From the NCBI RefSeq assembly GCF_000739555.1, contig NZ_BBJN01000033.1, positions 1 through 64,000 on the forward strand: DNA of 64,000 nt. Direction: 5' to 3'. The stretch comes from Halolamina rubra (GTDB lineage Archaea > Halobacteriota > Halobacteria > Halobacteriales > Haloferacaceae). Shown piece by piece: positions 6,214 through 54,029 of the stretch. The notes under the pieces are model-generated. The model ran no database searches, was not told the origin of the DNA, and saw only the letters and a list, made by a program, of their open reading frames with translations. Each line of letters starts with the position of its first letter. Within the stretch, counting starts at the first letter, position 1. The translations under genes were made by a program, and so were the position numbers.

Positions 6214-6654
6214 ATGACCCCACTGCAGTTCGCCGTCCCGATCGGGGCGCTCGAATCGTTCTCCGGGGCGTTCCCCTACGTGATTCTAGCACTCGTCGTC
6301 GCCAACCTCCTCACTCGGCATCTCGCCTACCGGAGCTACAAGCGAGCCGCCGAGAACGGCGCCGACGCGCTGGATCGCTACACGCCGCACATGACCATCT
6401 CCGCGCTGGCGATCCTCGCCTCGCTGCTGTATCTCGTGATCGAACCGCACTCCGGCATGGTGATCTCCACGCTGGTCGTCGGGACGTTCGTCGCGGACAT
6501 CTTCGAGTTCGAGGCCCGGCAGGTGGAGGCCCGGAACAACCTGGAGATCGAGAAGCCCAAGGGCGCTATCACCGCCTCCGTCGTCGCCCTCCTGTACGCG
6601 ATGTACCTGGCGCTGTTCTGGGTCATCCAGGGGCCCTGGGAAGCGGTCATCTGA
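6214..6654 (+). CDS. Small multi-pass membrane protein (DUF7313-like)
   Basis: The product has 146 residues with about four hydrophobic segments (FPYVILALVVANLLTRH, ISALAILASLLYLVI, MVISTLVVGTFVADIF, VVALLYAMYLALFWVI) and a short cytoplasmic loop rich in charged residues. It resembles a haloarchaeal family that sits beside the cytochrome b operon. Function is unknown. It faces the operon convergently, 316 nt from its last gene. Confidence 0.7.
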   Translation: MTPLQFAVPIGALESFSGAFPYVILALVVANLLTRHLAYRSYKRAAENGADALDRYTPHMTISALAILASLLYLVIEPHSGMVISTLVVGTFVADIFEFEARQVEARNNLEIEKPKGAITASVVALLYAMYLALFWVIQGPWEAVI

Positions 6655-6970
6655 TCGGCGCCGACCTCCTTCGACGGTTTCAGACGCCATTTAGCAGCTG
6701 CGTTCTCCGCCACGCAATCAGTGGTAGCCGCCGTGCCGGCGGCGCTCGTTGGTCGAACTGCTCTCGAGCCCTTACTGGTTGCCCGCGGGGGGGAGCGCAC
6801 GCGTGGCGTCGACGACGACGGCGGCGCGCCGACACCGCAGAGGCGTCGTTCGACTCGCCCGGCGACGGGGAGTTAATGGAGACCGATCCCGCACGTCGGC
6901 GGCGCGGGCGCGGCGAACCCGTCGCTGCGGGCGCAGCGGGTAGGAAGAACCGGAGAAGCCGTCCGTGGAG
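6655..6970. other. Intergenic stretch without a recognisable gene
   Basis: These 316 nt separate two convergent membrane-protein genes. Open frames here are Arg-rich shadows without a plausible start or codon bias. A short GC-rich palindrome (CGCTGCGGGCGCAGCG) lies near 6923-6938. Nothing else is seen. Confidence 0.5.
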
Positions 6971-7240
6971 CTACTCGTCGACGACCAGCGCCTCGCGGGC
7001 CTGTCGGGTGGCGGGGATGATCACCCAGAACGTGAACGCGCCCAGCAGCGCGGTCCAGAACATCAGGTCGCCGAGGAAGATCCCCAGCGTGTCGAACACC
7101 GTCCCGGGCTCCTCCGGCGGCGCCGCAACCAGCTGTCGGGTGCTCTCGAAACTGGGCGTGCGGTACCAGCTCGCGGAGATCATCCAGACGAGGGCGGCCA
7201 CGCTGAACAGCCCGAACCCCTTCATGAACTCGTCAGCCAT
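6971..7240 (-). CDS. Small membrane protein of the cytochrome b operon (DUF7314-like)
   Basis: This 89-residue product has two hydrophobic segments (FGLFSVAALVWMISASW and FLGDLMFWTALLGAFTFWVI) and a charged C-terminus (RQAREALVVDE). It is last in the minus-strand series that begins with halocyanin, though the 217-nt gap with repeats upstream may weaken co-transcription. Its place suggests an accessory subunit of the cytochrome b complex; this is inference from context. Confidence 0.65.
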   Translation of the reverse strand: MADEFMKGFGLFSVAALVWMISASWYRTPSFESTRQLVAAPPEEPGTVFDTLGIFLGDLMFWTALLGAFTFWVIIPATRQAREALVVDE

Positions 7241-7358
7241 TACCTGAATTTGGGCCGCCAGCCCTCTTCAGCGTTTCCCATCCCGGCCGCCGGGGGATCG
7301 GTTCGTGATCGGTGTCGTCCGCAGCGAGAATCATCGCTGGAGTGTGCTGCCACTCCCC

Positions 7359-7486
7359 GTCGGCACTCATCTCCGTCGGGGCCGGTTAGTCGTCACCGGC
7401 ACTCATCTCCGCCGAGGCCGGTTAGTCGTCACCGGCGCTCATCTCCGTCGAGGCGGGTTAGTCGTCACCGGCACTCATCTCCGCCG
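7359..7486. repeat. 36-bp direct tandem repeat duplicating a gene's stop region
   Basis: A 36-nt unit beginning GGTTAGTCGTCACCGGC recurs at 7384, 7420 and 7456, preceded by a 25-nt partial copy at 7359-7383. Copies differ at only a few positions. The copy at 7456 contains the last codons (AEMSAGDD) and TAA stop of the upstream membrane-protein gene, so the array is a repeated copy of that 3' end. Units are contiguous, without spacers, so it is not CRISPR. Confidence 0.85.
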
Positions 7487-7790
7487 CCTTGAACCGCGTG
7501 CCAAGCACGTACACGGCGGCGCCGAGCGCGATCGACAGCAGCCCGGCGACGGCGAACAGCGCCGAGAGAAGCGAGTCCGAGGGCGAGAGCGACAGCGCGC
7601 CGAGTATCGATCGGGCGAGTTGGCGGAGCAGCCCCGTCCCGAGCGCGGCGGCGTCGAGCAACAGGAAGCCGAACACGACCGCGAACACCGCGATCAGCGT
7701 CGAGAACACGGTCACCGTCTTGTACAGCCGCAGGGGGACCTCCACGTCGCGCCCCTCGCGGCCGTCGGTGCGGCGGTCGTCGTCGGCCAC
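7458..7790 (-). CDS. Two-helix membrane protein of the cytochrome b operon (DUF7315-like)
   Basis: This 110-residue product has a polar N-terminus (residues 1-22), a first hydrophobic segment VFSTLIAVFAVVFGFLLLDA and a second near ALFAVAGLLSIALGAAVYVL. It lies 3 nt below petD and is probably co-transcribed with it. No cofactor-binding residue pattern is visible. An accessory or assembly role in the complex is inferred from conservation of the neighbourhood. Its final codons are the source of the 36-bp tandem array downstream. Confidence 0.7.
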   Translation of the reverse strand: MADDDRRTDGREGRDVEVPLRLYKTVTVFSTLIAVFAVVFGFLLLDAAALGTGLLRQLARSILGALSLSPSDSLLSALFAVAGLLSIALGAAVYVLGTRFKAAEMSAGDD

Positions 7791-7793
7791 GGC

Positions 7794-8555
7794 CTACTTC
7801 GGCGGCCGCAGCCGGTAGTAGCGTCGGTTGAGGTCGTACATGTACCCCTCCCGCATCGTCTTCAGCACCGCGTAGGTGATGGCGCCCACGACGATCGGGG
7901 CCAGGAACGTCAGGTCGAACAGCAGGCTGACGTTCATCGGCATGATGTTCTGGATCGACAGCATCGACATGGTGAACGCGAACGTCACGCCGCCCATCCC
8001 GATCGCGGCCCAGAACGGCTGCTCGACCGGGCGTCGCGCGCTCCCCTTGTTGAGGAACGGGACGATCGCGATGGCGCCGACGATGACGACGTTGGCGAGC
8101 ACGCCGTACGTCCGGTCGGCCATCAGCTTCTGCCCGTTCAGCAGCGAGATCGCGGGGTTGAGGTCACCCAGCTTCAGCAGGCCGAACGACCAGTAGAGGT
8201 ACCAGTCCGGCAGGATGATCGCCGGCGTCGAGCTCGGGTTCGCCGGGTTGCCGATGTGGGGCGGCAGCGTCGCCGACAGCAGCAGCAGCATGCCGACGAA
8301 GAAGCTGGTCAGCGCGAGGTTGCGGATCAGCTCGTGGGGCCACGTCGGGAACCCCAGCACGTCGCGCTCAACGTAGGTGGACTGCTCGCGCAGGTCCTGG
8401 TCCTCGCGGCGGGCCCGCTCGAAGTACTCGTACGTGAGACGGGGGAGCCCCGCCCGGCGCTTCTTGCGCTCGCTCCACGTCGGCGTCTCGTCGTCCGGGG
8501 GGACGATGCCGGTTCCGCCGTCGGTTCGTGCGTCGGGTTGGTTGTCGTCGCTCAT
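7794..8555 (-). CDS. petD: Cytochrome b, C-terminal part (subunit IV / PetD-like)
   Basis: The product has 253 residues with an 80-residue polar N-terminal extension, then about four transmembrane segments. The quinol-oxidation motif PEWY appears as LPDWYLYWSFGLLKL, the usual place for it in the C-terminal cytochrome b domain, with Asp in place of Glu. Together with PetB it makes a split cytochrome b of b6f-like organisation that passes electrons from menaquinol towards halocyanin. It lies 4 nt after petB, so co-transcription is nearly certain. The extension is probably cytoplasmic and is specific to this group. Confidence 0.9.
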   Translation of the reverse strand: MSDDNQPDARTDGGTGIVPPDDETPTWSERKKRRAGLPRLTYEYFERARREDQDLREQSTYVERDVLGFPTWPHELIRNLALTSFFVGMLLLLSATLPPHIGNPANPSSTPAIILPDWYLYWSFGLLKLGDLNPAISLLNGQKLMADRTYGVLANVVIVGAIAIVPFLNKGSARRPVEQPFWAAIGMGGVTFAFTMSMLSIQNIMPMNVSLLFDLTFLAPIVVGAITYAVLKTMREGYMYDLNRRYYRLRPPK

Positions 8556-8559
8556 TGTA

Positions 8560-9360
8560 TCAGTGGGGTTCCGCGATGCCCTGCATCCAGACGATCGCGA
8601 TGTGGATCGCGATCAGCGATGTCACCACGAACGGGAGCAGGAACACGTGGAGGATGTACATTCGCTGGAGCGTCGGTGCGCCGAGCGAGAAGCCGCCGAA
8701 CACCAGCTGGGCGACCCACTCGCCGATCACTGGGATCGACAGCGCCATCTCGACGCCGATCTGTCCCGCCCAGTAGGCGAGCTGGTCCCACGGCAGCAGG
8801 TAGCCCGTGTACCCGAAGCCCATCGTGAGGCTGATCAGGACGATCCCGAGCAGCCAGTTGAGCTCGCGGGGCTCCTTGTACGCGCCGGTGAAGTAGACGC
8901 GGAGCATGTGCAGGAACACCGCCGCGGTCATCACCTGCGCCGACCAGCGGTGGATCGAGCGCAGCATGAAGCCGAACTGGAGGTCCTGCATGATCATCGC
9001 GATCTGGGAGTAGGCGACGGTGCCGGTCTCCGCGGCGGCCGCCGACGGGGTGTAGTAGAACCCCAGTAAGGCGCCCGAGAGCGCGGCGACGACGTACGCG
9101 AGCGTGGAGAACGACCCCAGCGCGTACAGCGGGTACCAGTACCAGAACTTGTTGTCGAGGTTGTACTGCTCGGTGTGGCTCTTCGGCATCTGGAGGTTGA
9201 CGCGGTAGTACATCGTCTCCAGGAGCTCCAGGTAGTCGACGACCCGGAACCGCTTGTCGAGCCAGATGAGGGTGAACAGGTACCCCTTCTCGATGGGGGA
9301 GAGCTGCTTCTCCTCCATCCAGCCGAGATGGTCGTGTTCGTCTTTCTCTTTGAGGCTCAT
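8560..9360 (-). CDS. petB: Cytochrome b, N-terminal part (PetB-like)
   Basis: This 266-residue product has four core transmembrane helices. The heme-ligand histidines lie in helix II (RSIHRWSAQ and VFLHMLRVYFTGAYK) and helix IV (YILHVFLLPF and IAIHIAIVW). GFGYTGYLLPWDQLAYW is the conserved quinone-pocket region. It belongs to the b6-type branch. The gene lies between a small DUF7318-like gene (3 nt) and petD (4 nt). The soluble N-terminal 60 residues are unusual for b6. Confidence 0.93.
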   Translation of the reverse strand: MSLKEKDEHDHLGWMEEKQLSPIEKGYLFTLIWLDKRFRVVDYLELLETMYYRVNLQMPKSHTEQYNLDNKFWYWYPLYALGSFSTLAYVVAALSGALLGFYYTPSAAAAETGTVAYSQIAMIMQDLQFGFMLRSIHRWSAQVMTAAVFLHMLRVYFTGAYKEPRELNWLLGIVLISLTMGFGYTGYLLPWDQLAYWAGQIGVEMALSIPVIGEWVAQLVFGGFSLGAPTLQRMYILHVFLLPFVVTSLIAIHIAIVWMQGIAEPH

Positions 9361-9363
9361 TGG

Positions 9364-9753
9364 TTATCGTTTGTAGTACGGGTAGACGGCACGCTTGAGC
9401 TGGTCCCAGACGCCGGCGCCCTCGAACTGTTCGCCGTCGACCTGGTCGCCGCGCACGTAGAGGTCCTCCCACTTGCGTCGGCGCTTCTTGACCACCATCA
9501 CGTCCGGCAGGAACTCCTTGCGGTAGATCGCGAGGATGAACGCCAGATCGATGAACACGATCGCGAGCAGGCCGCCGAGGAACATGTTCCCGTCGGCGGT
9601 CAGCCCCCAGCCGGAGACCAGCCCCCAGGTGAACATGAACACGAAGACGATCTCCAGCAGCGTCAGGAGCACGATCGCGATCGCCGCGGCCGTGCTCTCA
9701 CGCGCCGGCTCGTAGCGGTGGATGTCGCCGTAGGTGGAGCCCGACGTGGACAT
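9364..9753 (-). CDS. Two-helix membrane protein between halocyanin and cytochrome b (DUF7318-like)
   Basis: This 129-residue product has two helices (AAAIAIVLLTLLEIVFVFMF and MFLGGLLAIVFIDLAFILAI) followed by a basic loop, VVKKRRRKWEDLYVRG, and a tail ending PYYKR. Its start codon overlaps the halocyanin stop by one nucleotide (TGATG), so translation is probably coupled. It occupies the place where a Rieske subunit would be expected but has no Cys or His cluster motif. An anchoring or assembly role for the complex is inferred. Confidence 0.72.
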   Translation of the reverse strand: MSTSGSTYGDIHRYEPARESTAAAIAIVLLTLLEIVFVFMFTWGLVSGWGLTADGNMFLGGLLAIVFIDLAFILAIYRKEFLPDVMVVKKRRRKWEDLYVRGDQVDGEQFEGAGVWDQLKRAVYPYYKR

Positions 9754-10394
9754 CAGTCACCACCTCCACCGGTGTTGCCGGTGTTGGGCGATTCGCCGTA
9801 CTTGAGGACGTAGAACGTGAACACGAGGCTGACGAACATCATCAGGATCGTCGCCGCGCCCACCCAGTGAGGGTGGATCGGCGCGCCGATCTCGTGGAGC
9901 TCCCGTTCGCCGCCGCCGGCTGCGGTCTGTTCGAGCTCCTCGACGACCTCGACGGTGCCCACCATCCCGACGCCCTCGTGGGGAATACAGAAGTACTCGT
10001 GGGTGCCGAGCGTCTCGAACGTGTGCTCGTAGCTCTCCCCGCCGGGGACGTCGCCCTGGTCGGGGTAGTTGTCCCGCGCGGCCTGTTCGTTGTCGAACCC
10101 GCCCGACGCCCAGTAGTCGGCGCCGTCCGGGATGTCCTCCTCGTAGGCCGTCACACTGTGCCCGACCGAGCCGACGTTCTCCCAGACCACGGTGTCGCCG
10201 ACCGCGACCGTGATGTCCTCGGGGTCGAAAACGAGGCCGTCGGTCATGTCGACAGTGTGTGTCGTCCCGCCACCACCGCCGCCCTCGGTGCCAGTGGCCG
10301 TGCCGGTGCCTTCCTGCCCGGCTGCGACCCCCGAGCCGAGGGCGACGGCCCCGCCGGAGCCGCCTGTCGCTCGGAGAAAATCCCGCCTCTTCAT
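9753..10394 (-). CDS. Halocyanin (blue copper protein), Tat-exported, C-terminally anchored
   Basis: The 213-residue product starts with a Tat signal (MKRRDFLRATGGSGG), then a Gly-rich linker and a plastocyanin-like domain. The type-1 copper ligands are His79 (GHSVTAY), Cys136, His139 and Met144 in YFCIPHEGVGM. A single helix (VGAATILMMFVSLVFTFYVL) near residues 175-195 anchors it to the outer face. It should carry electrons between the cytochrome b complex and a terminal oxidase, replacing cytochrome c. It is the first gene of the operon. Confidence 0.92.
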   Translation of the reverse strand: MKRRDFLRATGGSGGAVALGSGVAAGQEGTGTATGTEGGGGGGTTHTVDMTDGLVFDPEDITVAVGDTVVWENVGSVGHSVTAYEEDIPDGADYWASGGFDNEQAARDNYPDQGDVPGGESYEHTFETLGTHEYFCIPHEGVGMVGTVEVVEELEQTAAGGGERELHEIGAPIHPHWVGAATILMMFVSLVFTFYVLKYGESPNTGNTGGGGD

Positions 10395-10420
10395 ACGGCC
10401 AAAAGGTGGGACGGCCGGCG

Positions 10421-10426
10421 CTTAAA
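10421..10426 (-). promoter_or_regulatory. TATA-like box of the halocyanin-petBD operon
   Basis: TTTAAG on the minus strand, 27-32 nt above the halocyanin ATG, is the only good promoter match before the operon. Confidence 0.45.
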
Positions 10427-10492
10427 CCCACCGTTTCACGCCACCCGGCGCGGCCGGCCACACCGGCAGACGGCGGCGGGGAGCCCGTTCGA

Positions 10493-11320
10493 TCAGTCGG
10501 TACCGTCTTCGTCGCCGTCGTCGCCCAGCTGCGGCACGAACTCCGGGCGCTCGCCCGCCTCCTCGACGGCGCGCAGCCGGTCGCGGTACTCAGCGGCGCG
10601 GAACCGGTCCGAGAGCCGCGCGTTCGCGACGACCGCGAACAGGAACACGCCGACGGCGACGAACAGCAGTCCGAGCACGGGACCGATCACGCCGCCCTGC
10701 GGGACGTCGGGCTGGAGGTCCCAGATCAGCGAGCCGATCACCAGTCCGACCCCGGCGACGATCTGGGCGGCGGCGACGAGCTGGAGCATCGTGTTGCCGA
10801 GCTCACCGGAGCCGGACTCCACCTCGTCGGGGTCCGGGAGGCTCGGGTCCTCCGGGGGGGTCTGGACCTCGTACTGCTCCATCGAGCACAGCGCCACCGT
10901 CGGCTCCACGTCCCTGAGCACGGTGCCCTCGCCCTCGACGCTCCCGTCGGGGTTGACGATGGCGTACCCCTCGTCGGAGTAGGCGAGCAGTCGGTCGCCC
11001 TCGGGCCCGGGGTGGCGCTCGAGCCGCGCGAACACCTCCCGAGTCGCGATCCGGGTCTGCAGGTCCTGCTCGACCCGGTCGATCAGCTCCGAGCCCGTGA
11101 TCCACGTGTCCGGGTCGAACACCGCCTCCCACTCCTCGCGCTCCATCTCCGCCATGTCCGCCGGGCCGAAGTCGTCGAAGTCGTACTCCGCCTCGACCGC
11201 CTCGCGCAGCGCGTCGAGGTCGGTGGACTCGCGCTCGGCGTCGTCGGGGTCGTCCGATGCCCCGTCGGCGTCCGCGGGGGTCCGCCCCGGAGCGGCGTCG
11301 TCGTCGGAGGGGTCGGCCAT
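10493..11320 (-). CDS. Acidic protein with two C-terminal membrane helices (DUF7319-like)
   Basis: This 275-residue product has a very acidic N-terminus (residues 1-60), a soluble middle with EEWEAVFDPDTWITGSELID and the strands LLAYSDEGYAIVNPDGSVEG, and two helices near residues 180-240 (MLQLVAAAQIVAGVGLVIGS and VLGLLFVAVGVFLFAVVANA). It lies about 100 nt upstream of the halocyanin gene on the same strand, and the same family recurs next to this operon in haloarchaea. Biochemical role is unknown; association with respiration is inferred from position. Confidence 0.68.
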   Translation of the reverse strand: MADPSDDDAAPGRTPADADGASDDPDDAERESTDLDALREAVEAEYDFDDFGPADMAEMEREEWEAVFDPDTWITGSELIDRVEQDLQTRIATREVFARLERHPGPEGDRLLAYSDEGYAIVNPDGSVEGEGTVLRDVEPTVALCSMEQYEVQTPPEDPSLPDPDEVESGSGELGNTMLQLVAAAQIVAGVGLVIGSLIWDLQPDVPQGGVIGPVLGLLFVAVGVFLFAVVANARLSDRFRAAEYRDRLRAVEEAGERPEFVPQLGDDGDEDGTD

Positions 11321-11423
11321 AGCGGGGGTTGGACTGGCGCGCCGTTAAGCGCTTCGCGAGCGGCCCGCGGGCGGCGCGCCGGAGTCGCACCCTTTAGGCG
11401 GGCCGGGCGCCAACCGTCGGTGA

Positions 11424-11903
11424 ATGGTCTCGGAGTCGACGGCCGCGACGCTCGCGGCGGCGTCTGTCACGCTCAGCCTCCCCTTCTTCCTCTACGGCGC
11501 GTGGTACGCGATCGAGACGGAGGTGATGACGTGGGACCGCCTGCTCCACCACCTGAAGTTCGTCGTCACCGGGCTCGTGCTGACGACGGCGCCGATGCTG
11601 CTGTGGATGATCCCGCGGTTCGTCGACCAGTTCAGCGGGCTCGCGGCGCTGCACGCCTTCCTCGGGCTGCAGGCGTACGCCCTGCTGCTGGTGGCGCTCA
11701 CGGGGATCGTGCGGATCTTCCAGGCCAAACGCGAGGCGGAGCTGTACCGGAACCCCGACCCGGACGCCGACATCGGCGACCTCCACGAGAACATGGGCGC
11801 CTGGCGCCGCCGGCTCCGGGTCGGCGTGTTCGGCTACCTGATCCTCTGGATCCTGGCGTACCTCCTCGGGATCTACCGCTACCTGCTGCTGCACGTCCTC
11901 TGA
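11424..11903 (+). CDS. Four-helix membrane protein (DUF7321-like)
   Basis: The product has 159 residues with about four hydrophobic segments. Several are flanked by histidines (WDRLLHHLKFVV, LAALHAFLGLQAYALLL, YRYLLLHVL), a pattern that would allow heme binding but does not prove it. It is divergent from the DUF7319-like gene and convergent with nth (7-nt gap). Association with the neighbouring electron-transport genes is inferred. Confidence 0.65.
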   Translation: MVSESTAATLAAASVTLSLPFFLYGAWYAIETEVMTWDRLLHHLKFVVTGLVLTTAPMLLWMIPRFVDQFSGLAALHAFLGLQAYALLLVALTGIVRIFQAKREAELYRNPDPDADIGDLHENMGAWRRRLRVGVFGYLILWILAYLLGIYRYLLLHVL

Positions 11904-53600: not shown

Positions 53601-54029
53601 ATGCCTCCCGGGGAACGCATCGCCGATCTCGACGCCGTACCGGACGACAGCAGCCTCCTGATCACCGTCGCGGACCGCGAGAGCGGCGAGGAGCGCGAGG
53701 CCATCCTCGTCCGGGCGGGCGACGGCGTCGCCGCGTGGTTCAACTACTGCCAGCACTGGCGCGACGTGAACCTCGACACCGGCGACGGCGCGGTCCTCCG
53801 GGACGGCGAGCTCGTCTGCAAGCGCCACGGCGCCACGTTCGAGCGCGACAGCGGCGAGTGCACGTTCGGCCCCTGTGAGGGGGCGGTGCTCGACGAGCTC
53901 CCCGTCGAACTCGCCGACGGCGGCGTGTTCCTCGACGCCGACGGCTACGAGTTCGTCCGCGTGGGCGCGAGCGAGGACGACGCGGACGACGACATCCACA
54001 AGTCGACGGAGTCCCGGATCGGCTTCTGA
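53601..54029 (+). CDS. Rieske [2Fe-2S] domain protein
   Basis: The 142-residue product has the cluster motifs CQH (Cys50, His52) and CKRH (Cys73, His76) spaced as C-x-H-x20-C-x2-H, in FNYCQHWRDVNLD and LVCKRHGATF. It has no signal peptide or membrane anchor, so it is a soluble Rieske-type ferredoxin rather than a bc-complex Rieske subunit. The final His-Gly motif is that of ferredoxin components of oxygenases. Its electron partner is not visible nearby. Confidence 0.87.
   Translation: MPPGERIADLDAVPDDSSLLITVADRESGEEREAILVRAGDGVAAWFNYCQHWRDVNLDTGDGAVLRDGELVCKRHGATFERDSGECTFGPCEGAVLDELPVELADGGVFLDADGYEFVRVGASEDDADDDIHKSTESRIGF

Follow-up and report, generated by a model that had tools for sequence, protein, structure and literature searches.

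The respiratory operon on the minus strand of a 64,000-nucleotide stretch of DNA from Halolamina rubra (the window; positions 1 to 64,000 of contig NZ_BBJN01000033.1, assembly GCF_000739555.1) encodes a halocyanin, the cytochrome b subunits PetB and PetD and four proteins with domains of unknown function (DUF7319, DUF7318, DUF7315 and DUF7314), and raises the question of where its Rieske iron-sulfur subunit is to be found. No Rieske motif was found in this minus-strand run, either in its reading frames or by profile scan. The initial annotation, which had already noticed the absence of a Rieske pattern, proposed that the Rieske protein is encoded elsewhere or that quinol electrons reach the halocyanin by another route involving the unknown subunits, and suggested a genome-wide search for a membrane Rieske protein. 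Such a search located the gene (petA) on another contig: the absence is local, petA has a separate location, and the operon's Rieske subunit is not missing. The genomic half of the counter-evidence that the annotation itself had named is thereby in hand. We hold with good confidence that the run is the membrane core of a split-cytochrome-b Rieske/cytochrome b (Rieske/cytb) complex, probably a menaquinol:halocyanin oxidoreductase, which takes its Rieske subunit PetA from a single gene elsewhere in the genome.

The petA gene and its location

Relatives were retrieved through PetB, and the best 80 of 586 confirmed loci were compared, some of them on contigs that end early; the nearest PetB locus among the 80 is that of Halolamina salifodinae (96% identity). 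In many of these loci the interval between DUF7318 and PetB is about 840-950 nt long. The protein encoded there has about 280 aa, begins with a twin-arginine-like sequence and carries the boxes CTHFCC...CxCHQS. A sequence pattern for this protein, PetA, was found in 42 of the 80 loci, the gene ending at most about 100 nt from the PetB start, with a few overlaps of up to 4 nt. The same junction measures 3 nt in the window (9361..9363, minus strand). Profile A1, built from 13 operon-encoded PetA proteins of relatives, gave one strong match in the genome of H. rubra (G000:C64:56304-57164, 465 bits, E 8e-140); a second match with E 0.2 was disregarded. The gene, at G000:C64:56301-57167 (= L167 8302-9168), lies on a contig other than that of the run, stands alone among unrelated-looking neighbours and encodes 288 aa. 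The protein has a twin-arginine-like GRRRFVKG (E 0.21 only with the twin-arginine translocation (Tat) model) and the boxes CTHFCC..CACHQS, and it matches the NCBIfam model Rieske_proteo TIGR01416 with E 9e-9. By profile search PetA was found in 50 of the 50 genomes reached via named PetB loci, a set that leaves out the genome of one PetB locus and the remaining loci, mostly metagenome bins. The Rieske-free hypothesis was dropped once the gene in the relatives' operons had been read and its profile had found PetA in H. rubra itself.

That the gene had escaped notice is due to an unusual protein, whose parts probably stand in rearranged order (see below). Four Rieske domains are detected in the H. 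rubra genome by the general Rieske model PF00355. Judged from their frames, they belong to an aromatic-type oxygenase (360 aa), a protein of 593 aa and two small ones (142 and 163 aa), and none of the four has the membrane-type motif. At E<=0.001 the model had no match in two Halonotius genomes (G040, G042), both of which hold PetA by the family profile, and in the same search, which covered 46 genomes, it missed the PetA of, for example, Hbt. salinarum (G018) and that of Natronomonas (G010); these two PetA proteins score 16.9 and 15.7 bits, below the cut-off. The small 142-aa protein is encoded in the window at 53601-54029, about 42 kb from the run, and has the motifs CQH...CKRH; small Rieske proteins like it occur in many haloarchaeal genomes, at times several per genome.

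A class sample of 97 genomes with completeness >=90% was used for co-occurrence. One and the same set of 68 genomes contains PetA, PetB and DUF7318, and 29 of the 97 lack all three. A PetA match in G051 (E 5e-4) was not counted, nor were G051, G052, G060 and G089 counted for PetB, their sole match being a long cytochrome b with 40-45% identity. Of the 97 genomes, 68 have DUF7315 and 67 have DUF7319, the sets being compared by eye. The other proposal of the initial annotation, that electrons reach the halocyanin through the unknown subunits instead, is not supported: a PetA of one and the same family goes with PetB in all 68 sampled genomes that have PetB and in all 50 of those searched. In a phylum sample of 148 genomes the PetA profile matches 18, all from the organism's own order (17 strong, G051 weak); the genomes listed without a match include six from that order and 14 from elsewhere in the phylum.

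Linkage divides along family lines. Within the family of H. rubra, PetA is adjacent to PetB in none of 36 genomes, lying at least 209 kb away on the same contig in 16 and on another contig in 20. Of the 32 genomes outside the family, 31 have petA on the strand of PetB, 5-206 nt upstream. The relocated copies form one group in a quick tree (12 of 51 rows; support 98 in the Shimodaira-Hasegawa-like approximate likelihood ratio test, SH-aLRT). The PetA alignments, profile comparisons and tree cover 51 of 54 rows, three being without the start motif needed for trimming. Since PetA is adjacent outside the family and never inside, and since the relocated copies group together, the pattern is consistent with a single relocation of petA at the base of the family.

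Order of the Rieske domain in PetA

In PetA the stretch GPAPRxxPxIP, whose usual place is after box II, precedes box I by about 170 residues, and the chain ends about 20 residues beyond box II. In the H. rubra protein GPAP occupies residues 62-65, and the ligands expected for the cluster are C237, H239, C263 and H266. We take this stretch to be the Pro loop that covers the cluster together with the last two strands of the domain. The best matches of the PetA profile among PDB sequences are Rieske subunits, which make up at least 51 of the 60 matches listed; DnaK fragments appear only at E >0.1. Against the QcrA chain 7q21_A the protein aligns out of order, with the boxes (224-269) at 324-362 and residues 60-81 (GPAPRGMPQIPIEID) at 369-390, beyond box II. 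The NCBIfam QcrA model NF050121 gives the same out-of-order placement, PetA 62-82 falling on positions 284-304 of 319. PetA carries Rieske-homologous segments in rotated order, and on this sequence evidence it is likely to be a circular permutation.

The comparison was extended to eight haloarchaeal membrane-type Rieske proteins of canonical order, termed NarB-type here (NarB and NarC being names for the proteins of such canonical Rieske/long-cytochrome-b loci). With hhalign, the 51 PetA sequences gave two separate matches to this set (E 1.8e-6 and 7.6e-6), PetA 60-82 falling on 150-172 and PetA 220-268 on 104-143. When PetA 56-86 was moved to the end, a single collinear match resulted and the score rose from 43.8 to 79.2 (E 1.4e-11). 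For control, windows of 31 residues were moved from 27 starts: the six starts at 42-72, which take in the whole or part of the stretch, scored 55.6-78.9, and the 21 starts at 78 or beyond 41.9-49.0. Sixty column shuffles of the moved stretch had a mean of 44.0 and a maximum of 49.7. By itself the stretch matches the post-box-II region with E 1.2e-8 and nothing significant elsewhere.

Other comparisons were flat. Moving the stretch brought no gain against 12 soluble Rieske proteins (46.1 to 45.8), barely shifted the PF00355 scores (16.9 to 16.9 and 15.7 to 17.5 bits, the H. rubra copy remaining unmatched both ways) and left the NCBIfam QcrA score where it was (native 26.2, moved 25.8, control 26.3). 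The total against PDB 7q21_A was likewise similar (native 25.3, moved 25.7), the moved form aligning as one collinear stretch (i-E 0.004) and the native form as two out of order (6.2 and 0.2). A structure model of the Hbt. salinarum PetA reached a predicted local distance difference test score (pLDDT) of 83.9 and a predicted template modelling score (pTM) of 0.81. In Foldseek it had no match with E<=0.001, and the best 50 of 693 matches include no Rieske chain; against viral models there was again none at E<=0.001, and no Rieske protein among the best 50 of 219. A poorer control model, that of the window's small Rieske protein, made with two sequences (pLDDT 61.2), likewise stayed without a match at E<=0.001, yet the 29 matches at the head of its list (E 0.009-0.16) were of Rieske type: Rieske ferredoxins, oxygenases and one nitrite reductase small subunit, the last presumably Rieske-like. 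That an order-bound structural alignment should fail on a sound PetA model is expected of a permutation; a large insert could have the same effect.

The alternative is that the GPAPR match arose by chance or convergence and that PetA is a Rieske protein of collinear order, diverged and truncated. With 23 columns the matched stretch is short, and neither the soluble Rieske proteins nor the HMMER totals against NCBIfam and PDB sequences show a useful rise on moving it. We nevertheless regard this alternative as rather unlikely, for it has to face the gain against the eight NarB-type proteins, which no shuffle approached, the specificity of the isolated stretch for the post-box-II region, the agreement of separate QcrA data on the same spot, and the shortness of PetA beyond box II. 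It appears probable instead that the main haloarchaeal Rieske protein is a natural permutant, in which the Pro loop and last two strands follow the Tat signal, that its QcrA-like membrane part was split off as DUF7318, and that the gene later left the operon in the family of H. rubra.

The operon and the proposed complex

The operon is real and conserved. Its first gene encodes the DUF7319 protein (10493..11320, minus strand; 275 aa, two predicted transmembrane (TM) segments, PF24003 E 1e-96). There follow, all on the minus strand, the halocyanin, a type-1 copper protein with a Tat-like start, copper domain and C-terminal TM anchor (9753..10394, PF00127 E 2e-17), the DUF7318 protein (9364..9753; 129 aa, two TM, PF24002 E 3e-71), the cytochrome b6-type PetB (8560..9360; 266 aa, PF00033 E 2e-45), PetD (7794..8555; 253 aa, PF00032 E 1e-8), the DUF7315 protein (7458..7790; 110 aa, two TM, PF23997 E 1e-36) and the DUF7314 protein (6971..7240; 89 aa, two TM, PF23996 E 6e-38). 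Halocyanin and DUF7318 overlap by 1 nt, and the spacings from DUF7318 to PetB, PetB to PetD and PetD to DUF7315 are 3, 4 and 3 nt; the gaps from DUF7319 to halocyanin (98 nt) and from DUF7315 to DUF7314 (217 nt) are wider. Two genes on the plus strand lie outside the run, encoding a DUF7313 protein (6214..6654, PF23995 E 9e-58) and, divergently, a DUF7321 protein (11424..11903, PF24007 E 1e-75). The initial annotation had described the halocyanin, PetB and PetD genes and those of the DUF7314, DUF7315, DUF7318 and DUF7319 types as one strand run with core gaps of 1-5 nt. The single strand holds for these genes but not for DUF7313 and DUF7321, which lie at the two ends of the range it gave. Its view that DUF7318 occupies the expected Rieske position is borne out by the petA site of the relatives, between DUF7318 and PetB, and by the likeness of DUF7318 to the membrane part of QcrA (see below).

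Among the 80 PetB loci, PetD is present in 78, DUF7318 in 77, halocyanin in 76, and DUF7315, DUF7319 and DUF7314 in 74 each; DUF7321 occurs in 72 and DUF7313 in 63. DUF7321 is opposite in strand to the run in all 72 loci that have the gene, and the orientation of DUF7313 varies among relatives, yet both are close neighbours throughout.

The candidate haem histidines of PetB are H137, H151, H238 and H253, paired H137/H151 and H238/H253, and the ligand spacing, by two patterns of which one is relaxed, is found in 79 of 79 PetB frames from the 80 loci. The Qo motif PDWY (P-x-W-Y/F) is present in 78 of 78 PetD proteins. With two haem-histidine pairs, a Qo motif and a Rieske subunit with CxH and CxxH boxes, for which export and cluster are predicted, the complex is one of the Rieske/cytb superfamily. 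CxxCH was absent from the nine proteins of the region, so that no counterpart of cytochrome c1 or f was found, and the complex is not classed as cytochrome bc1 or b6f proper.

The halocyanin scores 63.9 bits with PF00127 (cut-off 21.2), as a type-1 copper protein should, and 36.3 bits with TIGR03102, under the cut-off of 93.8. The copper ligands H79, C136, H139 and M144 are shared by all 75 copies of an alignment that includes the window's copy and leaves out L038, the copy without a tail; the C-terminal TM anchor is found in 74 of 75 operon copies. Besides the four ligands, all 75 operon halocyanins have a histidine just N-terminal to the membrane anchor (residue 176). Because the run holds no CxxCH protein, the halocyanin is the likely substitute for cytochrome c1/f.

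Each of 19 DUF7318 proteins has a match with E<=0.1 to NF050121, the model of actinobacterial QcrA (lowest E 8e-6; 3.9e-4 for the window's copy), covering model positions 20-97, the N-terminal membrane part. DUF7318 also matches the C-terminal half of a membrane protein whose gene precedes that of the NarB-type Rieske protein, by hhalign with E 1.5e-7 and by tblastn in 3 of 8 loci. The direct PDB profile match between DUF7318 and QcrA is weak (E 0.51). DUF7318 followed by PetA appears to resemble one QcrA chain in two genes.

From these features a path of electrons may be proposed. Menaquinol would be oxidised at the Qo site formed by the PDWY motif of PetD. One electron would pass through both b haems of PetB, and the other through the 2Fe-2S cluster of PetA to the membrane-anchored halocyanin, the likely acceptor in place of cytochrome c1/f, and from there to a terminal oxidase. 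DUF7318 is the likely membrane anchor of PetA, as a pair the counterpart of a single QcrA chain, and DUF7319, DUF7315 and DUF7314 are probable accessory subunits.

Several observations weigh against this assignment. The TIGR01416 match of PetA reaches 35.6 bits where the cut-off is 97.4, and PF00355 (gathering cut-off 20.3 bits) has no match to the H. rubra protein even at E<=1. Box I has CC and not GC, and box II HQS and not HGS. The genome is 92.9% complete and in 71 contigs. Several genomes have two or three PetA genes, so that there is no one-to-one relation with PetB (three each in G008, G019 and G031; two each in G004, G022, G025, G029, G030, G037 and G039). In G071, outside the family, PetA and PetB are on different contigs, and DUF7319 is without a match. 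The association of PetA, halocyanin and the DUF proteins in one complex is itself a prediction, made from sequence.

A different partner for PetA, namely another, NarC-like cytochrome b that would leave PetB and PetD Rieske-free, is very improbable. The canonical membrane-type haloarchaeal Rieske proteins do adjoin a long cytochrome b of their own, PetB and PetD matching one adjoining stretch in 8 of 8 loci (a gene is called in 5 of the 8). PetA, however, adjoins PetB in nearly all genomes outside the family, as given above, and the four genomes with only a long cytochrome b (G051, G052, G060 and G089) have no full PetA. The PetB search gave one match only in H. rubra, and therefore no other cytochrome b of the PetB family is seen there for PetA. 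The NarB-like Rieske proteins themselves were rejected as partners of PetB and PetD, all eight adjoining their own cytochrome b. Least probable of all, despite the run without a Rieske gene, its conserved membrane-anchored halocyanin and the PF00355 results in H. rubra and Halonotius, is a Rieske-free complex in which quinol at Qo gives its high-potential electron directly to the halocyanin with the help of the DUF subunits, for the family profile finds PetA in all these genomes and in the same genomes as PetB. The preferred reading remains a Rieske/cytb complex with PetA as its Rieske subunit.

Known systems and meaning for haloarchaea

In actinobacteria the QcrCAB genes stand in the order cytochrome c, QcrA, QcrB. 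The order halocyanin, DUF7318 plus PetA, PetB plus PetD parallels this, DUF7318 corresponding to QcrA 20-97 and PetA to the Rieske part of QcrA. QcrA is one chain in canonical order; here there are two genes, the post-box-II stretch lies in front, no CxxCH protein is present and cytochrome b is split. The split into PetB and PetD is shared with the cytochrome b6f/Bacillus type. Unlike b6f, the run has no CxxCH protein such as cytochrome f, and PetB has no cysteine. The covalent haem c_n of the b6f type needs a PetB cysteine, so no such haem is present here. The haloarchaeal NarB/NarC type combines a Rieske protein, a cytochrome b and a membrane protein of about 200 aa whose C-terminal part is like DUF7318. 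What sets it apart is a Rieske protein in canonical order, a single long cytochrome b, called at 474-534 aa, and separate loci. Examples of this second system are L115 3041-5717, L120 3380-6157, L121 2859-5534 and L122 2928-6077. Baymann and colleagues reportedly distinguished two haloarchaeal complexes in 2012, of which the first is tied to nitrate reductase and the second has a split cytochrome b.

In the Haloferax massiliensis genome (L159; locus L027) the CTHFCC PetA adjoins an open reading frame that we take to be SAMP1. A Haloferax CTHEGC protein (L115) had been considered HVO_2620-like, wrongly, the neighbour of the SAMP1-like gene being the CTHFCC protein (L159). SAMP1 is HVO_2619 (PMC4500146). 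As PetA adjoins a SAMP1-like gene and SAMP1 is HVO_2619, HVO_2620 is very probably this PetA. Passages of Pfeiffer et al. 2021 (PMC8305020) give HVO_2620/HVO_0842/HVO_0841 as petABD, alike to the b6-f complex and absent from about a third of haloarchaea, with halocyanin as probable acceptor. Haloferax volcanii as treated there has the same PetB and PetD, with petA unlinked from petBD by gene number, and the separation of petA from petBD is implicit in print already. Those main-text passages have no mention of the DUF subunits, the PetA motif or a rearranged order. Kletzin et al. 2015 (PMC4429474) were unable to identify the haem-c protein for the bc complex of haloarchaea, which fits a halocyanin in that place. 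An earlier report of DUF7318, DUF7319 and DUF7315 or of a permuted Rieske protein was not found in the literature searched, most subscription journals being outside its scope.

The location of petA removes an apparent gap in haloarchaeal respiration and makes quinol oxidation without a Rieske protein unnecessary. The standard Rieske model is blind to this PetA, and surveys relying on it could call such genomes Rieske-free. DUF7318, DUF7315, DUF7314 and DUF7319 become candidate subunits of complex III. The main remaining interest lies in the PetA protein itself: if the permutation is true, it would mean that an electron-transfer domain of very high conservation has had its topology rearranged, and would be informative on the strand connections needed by the Rieske fold and by docking at the Qo site.

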